22,897 bases of DNA from a virus, in IMG/VR virus record IMGVR_UViG_3300044591_000894, positions 1 through 22,897 of that record, one strand, 5' to 3'. Position 1 is the first letter of the stretch, and every line of letters starts with the position of its first letter. Both the position numbers and the translations under genes were made by a program. Under the pieces are notes generated by a model that was given only the letters and a program-made list of their open reading frames with translations, had not been told where the DNA came from and ran no database searches. Positions 591 to 5,651 of this stretch are shown here, one piece after another.

Positions 591-794
591 TTAACAACCT
601 TCTTCGTGATCTGTATGTATTCGAATCAGATCGTCGTTATCTTCTAAACCATCTACTGTATAATTATAATTATTTGCTCGCATCATTACTACTTCTTTTC
701 CTTCACTAGTAATAATGAAAGACTCTCCATTTTCAACTCTTTCAATGAGTTCATCAAATTTTTCTTGGAATTGTTTTACTGTAAATTCTTTCAT
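591..794 (-). CDS. Phd/YefM-like antitoxin-family protein, no toxin partner seen
   Basis: A 67-residue protein. The N-terminal half (MKEFTVKQFQEKFDELIERV, then ENGESFIITSEGKEVVMM) has the typical Phd/YefM layout: a short strand, a helix with conserved F and E, a turn ENGE, then a strand resembling xxITxxGKxVVxL. In Phd/YefM antitoxins this N-terminal domain dimerises and binds operator DNA, and the C-terminal tail binds the toxin. Here the tail is short and acidic (EDNDD, HTDHEEGC). No Doc, YoeB or other toxin gene is adjacent: downstream is tRNA-Ile, upstream a small membrane protein. A good sigma70-type promoter lies 22 bases before the ATG, suggesting early expression. The family call is by eye and fairly good; the role, such as neutralising a host toxin or autoregulation, is inference. 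Confidence 0.75.
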   Translation of the reverse strand: MKEFTVKQFQEKFDELIERVENGESFIITSEGKEVVMMRANNYNYTVDGLEDNDDLIRIHTDHEEGC

Positions 795-1665: not shown

Positions 1666-2109
1666 TTATTCTAGAAAAGATCTTAACATCCAGTGGAATT
1701 TTCCGTGCGATTCCATTAAACTCTGGACTAAATTAGAAGTTGCATATTGCTTTTGTCTATCTGCTTCCTCTGAAATTTCTGCAAATACTTCTATAATTTT
1801 CTTATTGTCATCACGCAACTGTCTTACCATTTCATTTGCGTCAATTGATTGAGCACTATTTGATGCCTGTTCAATGGATGAAACTTCTACAACTCTTGAA
1901 AGAGTACTAACTGGTTTCATACCTAAGTATCTCATATGTTCGGTAAGAGTATCAATTTCTTCAAACATTGCTTCATATTGCTCACCAAAGAGTATATGAA
2001 GTTGTTGAAAATCAGGACCTACCACATCCCAATGGTAGATCCAAGTTTTTTGAAATAGAACAAAAAGTGATGCTTGAGCATCACTTAACTGTTTAAACAA
2101 CTTTTCCAT
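1666..2109 (-). CDS. Dps-like ferritin-family protein
   Basis: 147 residues, close to the usual Dps length of 150-170. The Dps signature is present: H26-W-D-V-V-G-P-D-F-Q-Q-L-H38, followed by F/Y residues and D53-xxx-E57 in EEIDTLTEHMRYLG. H26, H38, D53 and E57 match the four inter-subunit ferroxidase ligands of the family. Dps assembles into 12-subunit shells that oxidise and store iron, detoxify peroxide and in some cases coat DNA. The N-terminus is short and not lysine-rich, so DNA coating is not obvious. The gene has its own TATAAATA late promoter 20 bases upstream, just after the porin terminator, so it is probably made late. Family assignment is strong; whether the protein protects host, phage DNA or virion is inference. 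Confidence 0.88.
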   Translation of the reverse strand: MEKLFKQLSDAQASLFVLFQKTWIYHWDVVGPDFQQLHILFGEQYEAMFEEIDTLTEHMRYLGMKPVSTLSRVVEVSSIEQASNSAQSIDANEMVRQLRDDNKKIIEVFAEISEEADRQKQYATSNLVQSLMESHGKFHWMLRSFLE

Positions 2110-2128: not shown

Positions 2129-2136
2129 TATTTATA
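2129..2136 (-). promoter_or_regulatory. T4-type late promoter (TATAAATA) for the Dps-like gene
   Basis: A perfect TATAAATA octamer on the minus strand, 20 bases before the ATG at 2109 and directly after the hairpin that ends the porin transcript. Confidence 0.75.
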
Positions 2137-2138
2137 AT

Positions 2139-2160
2139 AAGGGTCGGAAACCGACCCTTT
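2139..2160 (-). terminator. Terminator after the porin gene
   Basis: A 9-bp stem (AAGGGTCGG/CCGACCCTT, arms 2139-2147 and 2151-2159) with a 3-base loop lies just past the porin stop. The following minus-strand bases are TT then ATTATAAATA, so the T tract is short and merges with a late promoter. Confidence 0.75.
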
Positions 2161-2165
2161 AGTTA

Positions 2166-3650
2166 TCAGAACCTAAACTGGGTCTGAATTACACCACCAT
2201 AGTTAGAGGATGCATTCTTGAATCCCTGATTATTGGAAACATAGAAGATTGCAGGAGTGATGCTGATATTATCACTCACGCGGTAACGATAGAAGGTTTC
2301 CCACATCAGAGCATCCTTAGTGAGGGAAGCAGCATTACCAGGGGCACCGATAGCAAAACCAGCGGCATTACCCTTAGCAAATACATCTGCCCACTGGACA
2401 CCAGCAAACCAAGTCTCAGACTTAGTAGCAGCACGGGGAGTAGCAGGACCCTCTACAGTGTTCCAACCATACGCACCACTCAGAGAAGGAATAATACCAG
2501 ACTTCTTAGGTTGCCAATAAGCATTCACTGCGTAACCGTTAGAGGTTTGATTGGCAGCAAGAGTACCACCATTACCAGCAACACCGTTGAAGGTACGAAC
2601 ACGAGTGCCTTCAGTACCATAACGATAACCGAATGCAATACCATACTGAGGAGCACGATAACCGATCTGTGCCAGAGTGTTCAGAGCACCAGATTCATCA
2701 AATTCACCTTTGCTAGAATCAGAACCGTTTTGGGCAACATAGTTGATACCAGCAACGAAACCACCCTTACCTTTCTTGGTAGGTTGTGCCCACTGGGCAC
2801 CGAAACCAGAACCAGTTGCTTTGTTGTAGACACCAGGGGCACCAGCAACAGAGAAGAAGTCAAGAATGTCTGATTTATAAGCAGTAGGAACCCACGACAT
2901 CTCAGTGTTACGAACAAGAGCACCAGCAGTCAAAGTCAGACCTTTGGTAAGAGCAGGGAACTGATAGTACAGACGGTCAAGTTGCACTTGGTTTGCATAA
3001 GATTCTGCCTTATCCAGTTTGAACAGAGAAGAGGAAGAACCAAAGGGTTGACTGGAGAAATTACCAGAACGCAGACGAGTCTTCAGCAAATCCTTACCAG
3101 TAAAGGAAGTATCAAAGTTCAGACGAACATCATAGTTGAAAGCAGTGTTGCCAACATTGGTTCCATTAGCAAGACGAGCACCTTCTACACCACCGAGAAC
3201 GAAGGTTGCTTCACCACGCAGTTTAGATGTAGTGGAGAACTGAGTTGCTTGAAGTTGACCAACTTGTGCTTCCAGTTTATCGACACGACCACGAATAACT
3301 AGAAGTTCTTCGGAAAACTCTTTCGAAAGACGTTGGAGTTCATCAGTTACTTCGGTTACACGATCAAGGCAAGCATTCAGAAGTGCTGCTGCCTCATAAC
3401 GGGTCATTGCCTTACCACCACCATAAGTGCCGTTAGGATAACCAGCAACGCAACCATAACGCTCTACTAGGTTGCTGAGTGCCTGATATGCCCAATCAGA
3501 AGGTTGGACATCAGAAAATTGAGTGACGCTTGTTGCCTGCTCAGAGGAGTATTGATTGACTGCTGCAATATTAAGATCTGCGGCATTCGCAACAGCAGGA
3601 GCAATCATACCAAGGGCAACGGGTGCAAGCATCAGTTGTTTGATTTTCAT
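2166..3650 (-). CDS. Cyanobacterial-type SLH-domain outer-membrane porin (SomA/SomB, iron-uptake-porin-like)
   Basis: 494 residues. A Sec signal peptide with a cleavage motif AVANA|A lies near residue 23. An SLH domain follows (about 43-95: FSDVQPSDWAYQAL, then GCVAGYPNGTY and MTRYEAAALLN), then a coiled coil (about 97-137, VTDELQRLSKEFSEEL onward). The OprB-like beta-barrel runs from about 140 to the end and finishes in aromatic F494, the outer-membrane insertion signal. This is the full architecture of cyanobacterial major porins, where SLH binds peptidoglycan and the barrel conducts small solutes. The gene is clearly richer in G+C than its neighbours (32 of 60 bases at 2341-2400), which points to recent capture from a host. 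It has its own terminator and a host-like sigma70 promoter. Roles could be nutrient or iron entry, or altering the surface against competing phages; these are inference. Confidence 0.92.
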   Translation of the reverse strand: MKIKQLMLAPVALGMIAPAVANAADLNIAAVNQYSSEQATSVTQFSDVQPSDWAYQALSNLVERYGCVAGYPNGTYGGGKAMTRYEAAALLNACLDRVTEVTDELQRLSKEFSEELLVIRGRVDKLEAQVGQLQATQFSTTSKLRGEATFVLGGVEGARLANGTNVGNTAFNYDVRLNFDTSFTGKDLLKTRLRSGNFSSQPFGSSSSLFKLDKAESYANQVQLDRLYYQFPALTKGLTLTAGALVRNTEMSWVPTAYKSDILDFFSVAGAPGVYNKATGSGFGAQWAQPTKKGKGGFVAGINYVAQNGSDSSKGEFDESGALNTLAQIGYRAPQYGIAFGYRYGTEGTRVRTFNGVAGNGGTLAANQTSNGYAVNAYWQPKKSGIIPSLSGAYGWNTVEGPATPRAATKSETWFAGVQWADVFAKGNAAGFAIGAPGNAASLTKDALMWETFYRYRVSDNISITPAIFYVSNNQGFKNASSNYGGVIQTQFRF

Positions 3651-3710
3651 AAAAATGTTTTTTGTGTACTAAACGACAATGTAAAGATTTACAACAAAGT
3701 AAATCTTCGT

Positions 3711-3718
3711 TATTTATG
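3711..3718 (-). promoter_or_regulatory. Late-promoter-like octamer (CATAAATA) upstream of the porin
   Basis: CATAAATA differs from the T4 late consensus at one base. It lies 61 bases before the porin start and downstream of the sigma70-like promoter, so the porin might be transcribed both early and late. An AAGATTT/AAATCTT hairpin (3684-3707) lies in the leader between here and the ATG. Confidence 0.4.
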
Positions 3719-3721
3719 CGT

Positions 3722-3762
3722 CTTAAGCAAATCTTAAGATGAGAGTATCTTAATCCACTCTC
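3722..3762 (-). promoter_or_regulatory. Dyad and repeat cluster around the porin promoter
   Basis: Three structures are visible: CTTAAG at 3722-3727 and again at 3733-3738 (11-base period), a perfect 10-bp palindrome ATCTTAAGAT at 3731-3740, and a 6-bp inverted repeat GAGAGT/ACTCTC (3741-3746, 3757-3762) that brackets the -10 at 3747-3752. They look like operator sites, but the protein is unknown. Confidence 0.4.
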
Positions 3763-3775
3763 GTTCTTATGTCAA
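3747..3775 (-). promoter_or_regulatory. Sigma70-type promoter for the porin
   Basis: Minus strand TTGACA (3775-3770), a 17-base spacer, then TAAGAT (3752-3747). The -35 is perfect and the -10 matches four of six. Transcription would start about 90 bases before the porin ATG. Confidence 0.6.
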
Positions 3776-3834: not shown

Positions 3835-4476
3835 TTAAACTTCTACCGTAATCAGACGAGAAGCATAATCATGAGCATATGAAGTGCGAGCACCATGATG
3901 CCCCCAACCAATCCAACTATACGCATAGTCCATGTAACGATTGATAGACTTACCAGGAGTTTTCATCCTATCTTCAATTCGTTTCCATTGAACCTCAGTT
4001 GTTAGATAACCAAGTTGCGTTTGAAGAGATGATGGAGAACCACCAAACTTCTTGGCAAAATCACCCAATCCATAATAACGATCGGCAGATGTCCATTGAA
4101 TCAGTCCGTAACCACGTCCACAGTTACTCCAACTGGTTCTGCTACCACCTTCACAAATATTAGGAATAAAAGTTGATTCCTGACGAATATTACCCATGAT
4201 GGTAGCAAGGGCGTTTCTGTCTTTAATACCACGATCCTGGAAGTATGCCAGGGTAACATTCTCATATTCATTACACCCTTTACAAATAAGCCTTTTCTCT
4301 TTTGGCTTTTCTGGTGCAACCTCTCGGATTGCTGTCTTTAATGTAGGCTCCTCTTGAATAATAGAGAATGGTGGAGGACCACCCACAGGAGGAGGAGGAA
4401 ACACTTGAGGCAGTGATGCCGTATTGGTTGTAACCATTGCTACTAGAGGAACGGCTACTGTAAAGAAATTTTGCAT
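3835..4476 (-). CDS. Exported phage-tail-lysozyme-like peptidoglycan hydrolase
   Basis: 213 residues. Residues 1-21 form a hydrophobic N-terminal signal or anchor (FFTVAVPLVAMVTTNTA). A proline-rich linker follows (about 26-60, with PPPPVGGPPP), then a catalytic domain from about 68 to the end. Motifs NALATIMGNIRQESTF and GYGLIQWTSADRYYGL match the lysozyme-like fold of phage tail lysozymes, with E100 the expected catalytic acid. Four cysteines (65, 68, 108, 119) suggest disulphide bonds in an extracytoplasmic protein. It would cleave cell-wall glycan during lysis or entry. The gene stands between its own terminator and a 150-base intergenic region. No holin is adjacent, and the signal-like N-terminus suggests Sec export. 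Fold recognition is good; lysis versus virion role is open. Confidence 0.8.
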   Translation of the reverse strand: MQNFFTVAVPLVAMVTTNTASLPQVFPPPPVGGPPPFSIIQEEPTLKTAIREVAPEKPKEKRLICKGCNEYENVTLAYFQDRGIKDRNALATIMGNIRQESTFIPNICEGGSRTSWSNCGRGYGLIQWTSADRYYGLGDFAKKFGGSPSSLQTQLGYLTTEVQWKRIEDRMKTPGKSINRYMDYAYSWIGWGHHGARTSYAHDYASRLITVEV

Positions 4477-4916: not shown

Positions 4917-4924
4917 CATAAATA
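4917..4924 (+). promoter_or_regulatory. Late-promoter-like octamer for the plus-strand nuclease
   Basis: CATAAATA on the plus strand, 26 bases before the ATG at 4950. One mismatch to the T4 late consensus. Confidence 0.45.
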
Positions 4925-4949
4925 ATATTAAAAGAAAGAAAATATTTTT

Positions 4950-5651
4950 ATGGAATGGAAATATAACGGAGAAGATTTTATTGAAGTTCCAAAAAATATG
5001 GAAGGTTTTGTTTATTTGATTACAAATTTAACTAATGAAAGAAAATATGTGGGGAAAAAACACTTTTGGACTAGACAAAAAGATAAAAAAACTGGACGCA
5101 AAAAAACAAAAGAAAGTGATTGGAAAAATTATTATGGTTCTTGTGATGAATTAAAAGAAGATATTAAAGACATAGGAAAAGAAAATTTTTTAAGAGAAAT
5201 TCTTTACTTATGTCCTCATAAAAAATCTATGTCTTATTTTGAAACTTACGAACAATTTAAAAGAGATGTATTGATGACTGATGAATATTATAATACAAAT
5301 ATTGAAGGAAGATTTTTTGTAAGTGAAAGAACTGGAATTTATGAAGTTGTTTTAAGAAATGACAAATATAGAGAAGATAAAAGAAAACTTATGACTGGTG
5401 ATAATAATCCAGCAAAAAGACCAGAGGTTAGACAAAAGTTAAGTGAAATGTTTTCTGGTGAAGGGAATCCTATGTATGGATCCAAATTGACAAAAGAACA
5501 TAAACAAAAACTTACTACATCAAGAAATATTATTCTAACGGATGGAAATAAAAATTGGGAAAGTATAGTATCTTATATGAAAGAAAATAAAATAGGATTC
5601 CAAACATACAAAAAAAGGTTACAAGAAGGTAATGTTTGGATAGTTGATTAA
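4950..5651 (+). CDS. GIY-YIG homing endonuclease with two NUMOD3 motifs
   Basis: 233 residues and the only convincing plus-strand gene in the window. An N-terminal GIY-YIG-type domain runs from about 18 to 125: GFVYLIT (19-25) and KYVG (32-35) correspond to the GIY and YIG strands, followed by SDWKNYYGS and NFLREI. Two NUMOD3-like DNA-contact repeats follow (about 150-169 beginning GDNNPAKRPEV, and about 170-189 beginning GEGNPMYGSKL), then a C-terminal helical DNA-binding tail. This is the layout of freestanding Seg-like homing nucleases of T4-like phages, which cut DNA of related phages and spread by recombination. The gene is very AT-rich (11 G/C in 60 bases at 4921-4980). It ends inside the locus where the minus-strand GIY-YIG remnant (5648-5758) breaks off, which suggests it invaded that gene. 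Confidence 0.88.
   Translation: MEWKYNGEDFIEVPKNMEGFVYLITNLTNERKYVGKKHFWTRQKDKKTGRKKTKESDWKNYYGSCDELKEDIKDIGKENFLREILYLCPHKKSMSYFETYEQFKRDVLMTDEYYNTNIEGRFFVSERTGIYEVVLRNDKYREDKRKLMTGDNNPAKRPEVRQKLSEMFSGEGNPMYGSKLTKEHKQKLTTSRNIILTDGNKNWESIVSYMKENKIGFQTYKKRLQEGNVWIVD

Follow-up and report, generated by a model that had tools for sequence, protein, structure and literature searches.

Cyanobacterial porins of the SLH/OprB type, such as SomA/SomB and Slr1908, have a common domain order, a 16-strand barrel and a terminal Phe. A phage-borne porin that alters a receptor is Lc of coliphage PA-2. Porin mRNAs of Prochlorococcus and Nostoc have been described to be repressed by Yfr1 via their ribosome region (PMC6778093, PMC6974561), and the motif of Yfr1 has been given as ACUCCUCACAC (PMC2518516). 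With regard to cyanophages, pstS has been reported in 30 of 95 Kyanoviridae, and porin goes unmentioned in the available part of that paper (PMC10976474). The genome paper of Synechococcus phage S-SRM01, as far as its available text goes, does not mention the porin either (PMC8557907), though GenBank annotates QPX48248.1 of this phage as such.

Here, we analyzed a stretch of 22,897 bases (the window), which contains T4-like cyanophage genes (ribonucleotide reductase, primase and a DnaB-like helicase) and has the gene order of S-SRM01. An intact ORF on its minus strand (2166..3650, 494 aa) encodes an SLH/OprB porin with a putative signal peptide (residues 1-23, read by eye), an SLH domain (residues 45-88; PF00395, 37.1 bits, cut-off 20.8), an OprB domain (residues 104-494; PF04966, 48 bits, cut-off 22.9) and Phe as the last residue. 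The por_somb model NF033921 matched it with an E-value of 2.5e-87 and 293.6 bits, well past the cut-off of 100. The AlphaFold2 model, for which 46 sequences of the window and the loci were used (mean pLDDT 74.2), consists of one long helix, with the coiled coil at residues 84-137, and 16 strands that form a barrel at residues 141-493; residues 1-80 are unreliable (pLDDT <50), so that the signal peptide is assigned by eye only. The closest solved fold was P. putida OprB (4gey; Z 24.5, 311 residues, rmsd 3.4), and Foldseek returned OprB, followed by the SLH tether-porin OmpM1 at ranks 2-5. Judged by sequence and model, the protein is a member of the SLH/OprB (NF033921 por_somb) family with an N-terminal SLH domain and a 16-strand barrel, and is predicted to form a pore. 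The original prediction, which had read an intact SLH domain, coiled coil and OprB-like barrel with a terminal Phe from the DNA, was confirmed in these parts (the signal peptide by eye only); its comparison with the SomA/SomB layout is supported by the NF033921 por_somb score on a T4-like cyanophage contig, and the structure prediction it had suggested left the barrel unbroken, with 16 strands and OprB as the top fold.

When viral contigs were scanned with the window porin, 374 pattern matches were obtained, 356 of which encode relatives (80 loci kept); scans with the S-SRM01 porin and with the porin of contig L082 found 399 and 309 (80 kept each). Among 50,697 phage records, S-SRM01 was the only one with a near full-length relative (two records, one genome), and S-CREM1 and S-PM2 matched over the SLH part alone. 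For scale, the S-SRM01 capsid protein matched 379 Synechococcus-named and 61 Cyanophage-named records (E<=1e-50). The porin family is common, with hundreds of viral contigs, yet in the records that were searched only one cultured phage genome has it at full length. With 356 viral candidate stretches encoding relatives and purifying selection on the gene (see below), its presence is, on sequence grounds, more than chance. A single copy was present in 19 of 20 large contigs and two copies in one, G301 (the contig of L005), whose porins (62669-64165 and 77472-78953) are 98% and 84% identical to that of the window. A scan of viral contigs for host-type porins with the host porin L132, which finds close relatives only, gave one short match. 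Contig L082 (CALGUV010000018.1) is filed as a Microbacteriaceae MAG and carries a phage-clade porin, HLI, and dCMP-deaminase-like and ribonucleotide-reductase-like genes; it is probably a misbinned cyanophage contig.

The gene had been regarded as compositionally foreign, with G+C counts of 32/60 at 2341-2400 and 11/60 at 4921-4980. These counts are correct, and the GC content of the porin gene (46.1%) exceeds that of the rest of the window (34.4%); the contrast was partly hand-picked, since 5 of 12 sixty-base blocks with at least 30 G+C lie outside the porin gene. The next gene (lysozyme-like) has a GC content of 42.2% and another neighbour 39.6%. Recoded with the mean codon usage of 16 other genes of the window, the porin protein already reached 39.8% GC, Gly and Ala make up 23.5% of it (against 13.1%), and amino-acid content accounts for about half of the excess. 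The remainder is C in two-fold codons, with a fraction of 0.42 in the window porin and 0.47 in the S-SRM01 porin; codon use is similar in the major capsid gene (0.64) and psbA (0.58-0.67) of S-SRM01, where 12 of 116 ORFs of at least 200 aa have a GC3 higher than the porin. At four-fold sites, the window porin has 23% GC and 64% T, and the median GC is 0.231 for phage porins and 0.735 for host porins. Foreign composition was thus not borne out, as the four-fold sites are AT-rich like those of the phage and about half of the excess stems from amino acids, and the codon comparison that had been proposed gave a phage-like result (four-fold GC 0.23 vs the host median of 0.735). By these measures, codon use looks like that of a well-expressed phage gene.

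For the phylogenetic analysis, ORFs of at least 400 aa (250 phage and 78 host) were reduced to 78 and 56 representatives, shorter porin ORFs being dropped, and the tree was reconstructed by a quick method with SH-aLRT support only. All 78 phage and all 56 host representatives fell on either side of one branch (SH-aLRT 99), and the phage clade adjoined 21 host rows (support 92), whose genomes belong to freshwater Synechococcus/Cyanobium or to unnamed picocyanobacteria. The best host identity to the window porin was about 59-62%, with a match in 287 of 300 genomes of the family. Residue 253 is Trp in all 78 phage representatives and Phe in 18 of the 21 sister hosts; a 12-residue stretch that precedes the SLH domain in hosts is missing from the phage proteins. 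Judged by phage synteny and by host homologues as nearest outgroup, the porin is a host-derived cyanophage gene. The median dN/dS among phage porins was 0.237 in 150 random pairs of representatives (0.246 for the 137 with dS<1.2), indicating purifying selection. One single old capture from a host, maintained since then, would be the simplest reading of these data. The acquisition from a Synechococcus-like host that had been proposed holds as far as the tree places the origin near the Synechococcus/Cyanobium type, and fails as a recent event: the gene lies inside a clade of phages only (78/78) and has phage-like codon use. A recent host capture without function, for which the GC contrast (46% vs 34%) had been the argument, is contradicted by this clade, by the phage-like four-fold sites and by purifying selection, and we consider it extremely improbable.

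Silent divergence from the window in L004-L017 amounted to a dS of 0.20-0.32 for the porin, at least 0.84 for Dps (where defined), at least 0.95 for gmd and 0.31-0.54 for lysozyme; for L002, the value of lysozyme (aa 0.96, nt 0.39) stems from a frame artefact and was disregarded. Movement of the porin by recombination might be read from this, but its lower dS could stem from codon bias, and lysozyme is also at only 0.31-0.54.

Assessments of host-derived phage genes usually concern the protein; in this porin, the clearest host-to-phage difference is the leader. The 5' leader of the window porin (3651..3746, minus strand) ends in TGTCGTTTAGTACACAAAAAACATTTTT-ATG and has neither an obvious ribosome site nor a Yfr1 complement. 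The start region of host porins reads ...GGTGTGAGGA(N)ATG, which is the complement of the Yfr1 motif. Such a complement of at least 8 nt was found at -11 to -15 in 35 of 46 host porin leaders (shuffles 0.15) and in none of 75 phage leaders; within the last 25 nt, it was found in 37 of 48 host porins and in none of the 126 other host ORFs of these loci (46 of the 56 hosts had leaders of at least 60 nt and 48 of at least 25 nt; 75 of the 78 phage leaders were used). In the sister clade of hosts, 17 of 19 leaders had at least 9 nt. At a threshold of 6 nt there was still no match in the 75 phage leaders, the longest run being 4, and among other phage ORFs at least 8 nt occurred in 0 of 1431 (7 nt in 18). 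The median duplex energy with Yfr1 was -19.0 for hosts and -4.8 for phages, with -1.3 for the window.

The pattern TGTGAGGAN{2,6}ATG had 39 occurrences in 10 host genomes (2 for the control), and at least 22 of these are porin starts by coordinates; it superseded the badly set GGTGTGAGGAN{8,14}ATG, which matched one of the 10 genomes. A Yfr1-like gene, consisting of a hairpin, the motif and a terminator-like stem about 210-245 nt before the thioredoxin WCGPC, was present in all 10 host genomes, whereas the pattern ACTCCTCACACN{0,20}CTTTTT, also badly set and superseded by another search, had matched one of them. In 2.72 Mb of phage loci, the Yfr1 11-mer did not occur, and Rfam gave no family for one Yfr1-motif locus. 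A second conserved host element ending in the Yfr1 motif, GGGAGTCTGTCCTCGTTTCGACCC...ACTCCTCACAC, was noticed in L337, L338 and L340-L344 (G001, G002, G231, G156, G075, G181 and G123).

Judged from its leader, the phage porin mRNA would not be of the Yfr1-controlled type, the complement over the ribosome site being absent. The phage may thereby keep making the pore while the host supply is held down. On the other hand, loss of the site may simply accompany a replaced SD-less leader, without selection for loss: ribosome-site tetramers numbered 3 among phage porin leaders vs 39 among host ones, and since phage leaders rarely have them, the disappearance of the Yfr1 site is indistinguishable from that of the ribosome site. 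We found no report of a Yfr1-free phage porin in the literature, in which work naming both cyanophage and Yfr1 was covered in part.

Upstream of the window porin lies a promoter-like site, TTGACA-17-TAAGAT (3747..3775, minus strand), which agrees with the consensus at 10 of 12 positions. A site of the consensus sigma-70 type, TTGACA-N-TANNNT, precedes 49 of 74 phage porins (shuffles 1.2), and its spacer is 17 in 41 and 18 in 8 and never of another length, though 15-18 was allowed; the strict promoter was missing from the other 25 of the 74 leaders. Within the window leader, CATAAATA (3711..3718, minus strand) matches by sequence the late-promoter motif NATAAATA, which has been reported for S-PM2 (PMC2984593) and occurred upstream of 20 of 74 phage porins (4.5 in shuffles). 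The T4-type late-promoter match TATAAATA (2129..2136, minus strand) stands ahead of Dps, one of 5 such matches in the window where 2.02 are expected. These late-type motifs would make late or dual expression of the porin possible.

The window leader contains a 10-pair hairpin (3683..3708, minus strand) and folds as a whole at a z-score of -2.80, with 2 of 200 shuffles as good. Directly past the stop codon, a GC-rich hairpin (2141..2157, minus strand) is a possible terminator, although absent from the terminator-scan list. A different hairpin, named R1, is common to 26 distinct phage leaders and has a conserved loop, CNCAAYTAYTYG. Paired cells in its stem reached 91.0%, and its covariation score was 0.534 against 0.217 in shuffles (0/500 as high) and at most 0.179 when slid; because the leaders were picked by loop pattern, conservation of the loop is partly built in, while that of the stem is not. 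The R1 model matched the porin leaders of S-SRM01, L204, L218, L040, L190, G305 and G310 and that of the second porin of G301 (the first porin of G301 has a window-type leader). Weak matches away from porins were seen in L172 (E 0.19), L301 (E 0.83), L085 (E 0.83) and G307 (E 0.013), and none in five host genomes at E<=0.1. The window leader, with its own hairpin, gave no R1 match at E<=1, and no Rfam family was found for porin leaders. PhotoRC-II leader RNAs were observed on two porin-bearing phage contigs, L204 (8228-8323, 81.5 bits) and L190 (11407-11503, 64.3 bits).

Based on leader, protein and tree, we propose that the porin serves as a replacement porin and envelope tether, made early and blind to Yfr1, which maintains permeability and envelope stability; we hold this to be an evenly balanced proposition. 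An old host porin would have been captured once by a freshwater cyanomyovirus ancestor and kept. Because most relatives have a consensus sigma-70 promoter, the gene would be transcribed by unmodified host polymerase, i.e. early, and because the complement over the host ribosome site is absent, its translation would be blind to Yfr1. The barrel would insert in the outer membrane and the SLH domain would grip the cell wall, and the channel, with its conserved loops L2/L3, would let inorganic ions, phosphate for example, into the periplasm as host porin supply falls. Early, strong production of the porin in infection would in this way keep the outer membrane working. The tether may matter no less than the pore, as related phages instead have an SLH protein whose barrel is of just 8 strands. 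If this reading is true, phages escape host sRNA control of the envelope besides host transcription.

The genes around the porin bear on what might pass through it. In 22 of 71 relatives with 1 kb downstream, the next gene on the same strand is PstS (identified by the equivalog TIGR00975 with 260.8 bits, cut-off 205), and none was there in the other 49. Flanks of 4 kb on either side of the porin were available for 39 representatives. In 18 of them, the start of PstS is no more than 600 nt downstream, as is that of Dps in 3, and HLI, peroxiredoxin and Dps were found within 4 kb in 20, 14 and 10, respectively. Adjacency to PstS would favor nutrient entry, which the original prediction had named next to a change of the cell surface as a reason for keeping the gene. 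Against the replacement porin stands that the window has no PstS beside the porin: both in the window and in S-SRM01, Dps follows instead. In the window, the gene next downstream is Dps/ferritin-like (1666..2109, minus strand, 147 aa), a frequent but inconstant neighbour of phage porins, and the gene next upstream is Phage_lysozyme2-like (3835..4476, minus strand). One could suppose that iron enters through the porin and is stored by the neighbouring Dps, to be used in ribonucleotide reductase, ferredoxin or parts of the virion. The NCBIfam name is 'iron uptake porin', Slr1908 of the same family has been described to affect iron content (PMC8707739), Dps starts 60 nt past the porin in the window, and Dps/ferritin was present in 13 of 20 large porin-bearing contigs, including 7/7 over 200 kb, as well as within 4 kb in the 10 of 39 mentioned above. 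But Dps is often missing nearby and can sit 15-184 kb away, PstS is the commoner next gene (18/39 vs 3/39 within 600 nt), porin and Dps have different promoter types in the window, and an iron role of Anabaena porins could not be established, according to the part of that study available (PMC9705863). An iron module is quite unlikely in our judgment.

Several other features were observed at these loci. A tRNA gene lies within 500 nt upstream of 33 of 73 phage porins, and in L067, tRNA genes are densely packed directly upstream of it (8-1809). The window also has a SegE-type GIY-YIG endonuclease gene with NUMOD3 (4950-5651, plus strand), opposite in strand to its neighbours and possibly a homing gene, and a Phd/YefM-type antitoxin gene (591-794, minus strand) beside tRNA-Ile (tat) at 511-584. 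In S-SRM01, psbA is split by an endonuclease gene (207378-209040, L109).

Sequence variation distinguishes parts of the barrel. Among phages, mean entropy was 0.48 in the channel loops L2/L3, 0.56 in the strands and 1.21 in other exposed loops; sister host porins had the same pattern with more variation. A changed pore charge was considered and rejected, as strands (7.26 vs 6.81) and L2/L3 (-1.81 vs -1.71) are alike in phages and sister hosts. The whole-barrel charge was +4.6 in phages vs -3.5 in hosts (sd about 8), and this difference sits in exposed loops and turns; with strands and L2/L3 like those of sister hosts, no claim on selectivity is made. It has to be considered whether the phage porin replaces host porins in order to present different exposed loops, blocking other phages or grazers. 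Lc of coliphage PA-2 is a precedent for a receptor-changing porin, exposed loops are the most variable part, the promoter is putatively early, and the porin stands among surface-sugar genes, with a GT25 glycosyltransferase gene whose end is at most 600 nt upstream in 14 of 39 representatives and a large glycosyl/fucosyl gene block near the porin in S-SRM01. A review has also proposed that the SLH protein of S-PM2 guards against infection or grazing (PMC2984593). Since exposed loops are even more variable among sister host porins, there is no special diversification in phages, and conserved channel loops would be needless for such a purpose; the idea is putative. We regard this change of surface as unlikely, although less so than the iron module.

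A second phage family bears on the tether. The S-PM2 and S-CREM1 proteins (279 and 292 aa) have a signal, SLH domain, helix and barrel with a terminal Phe, and the model of this family (32 relatives) has 8 strands at a mean pLDDT of 64.1. A scan found 361 relatives (80 kept), making it as widespread as the porin. Porin and 8-strand family were found together in 0 of 27 large contigs (20 with porin, 7 with the 8-strand protein), records that may be fragments. Its context includes a tRNA upstream in 39 of 67 and, among 41 loci, HLI next in 25, Dps next in 6, GT25 upstream in 6 and PstS next in 1; promoter matches numbered 47 of 69, a count without shuffle control. Mutual exclusion with such a family would favor an envelope role for the porin, and the modelled 8-strand barrel shows that a wide pore would be unneeded in other phages.

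From this it might follow that the SLH-barrel protein only fastens the outer membrane to the cell wall as host envelope synthesis stops, with an incidental pore. The signal-SLH-coil-8-strand family is as widespread and in similar contexts, never together with the porin in the 27 large contigs, and a slr1908 mutant has been described to over-produce vesicles (PMC8707739). However, channel loops L2/L3 are more conserved than strands, PstS is adjacent to the porin in 18/39 but to the 8-strand family in 1/41, and the mean pLDDT of the 8-strand model is only 64. A pure tether appears very unlikely, slightly more so than the iron module. Both the pairing of porin with PstS and the existence of an exclusive 8-strand family make 'pore or tether?' testable. 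With regard to the replacement porin, we tentatively suggest, at somewhat less than even confidence, that the Yfr1 site was removed after one old capture and gave way to a promoter that is strong and early and to leader hairpins that are dedicated and covarying, so that the outer membrane would pass from the Yfr1-limited host porin to a Yfr1-free phage porin, with an SLH/8-strand protein in the same place in other phages. The porin would then be a metabolic/envelope gene of phages with a leader remade so as to evade regulation by host small RNAs.

Compared with cyanobacterial SLH/OprB porins, the phage gene differs in its leader, which lacks the Yfr1 complement and ribosome site, and in its phage-type codon use. 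The closest described relative is the S-SRM01 porin QPX48248.1 (Kyanoviridae, Serangoonvirus), which is 76% identical to that of the window and stands in the same order lysozyme-porin-Dps-gmd, but whose leader has the R1 hairpin that the window leader lacks. The 'putative S-layer protein' of S-PM2 and the 'iron uptake porin' of S-CREM1 resemble the window porin as phage-borne proteins with signal, SLH domain, helix, barrel and terminal Phe; they differ in their length of about 280-292 aa and predicted 8-strand barrel, and their por_somb scores (67.7 bits for S-PM2 and 97.6 for S-CREM1) are below the cut-off of 100. Veillonella OmpM1 (8bym, 8bys, 8byt; phmmer E 5.3e-15) is likewise an outer-membrane tether composed of SLH, coiled coil and barrel, although bacterial and distant, with an identity of 12-14% when the folds are aligned. 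Phage PstS, psbA and other cyanophage metabolic genes are likewise host-derived and kept by cyanophages; the porin differs from genes of the PstS/psbA type in that it is predicted to act at the outer membrane.
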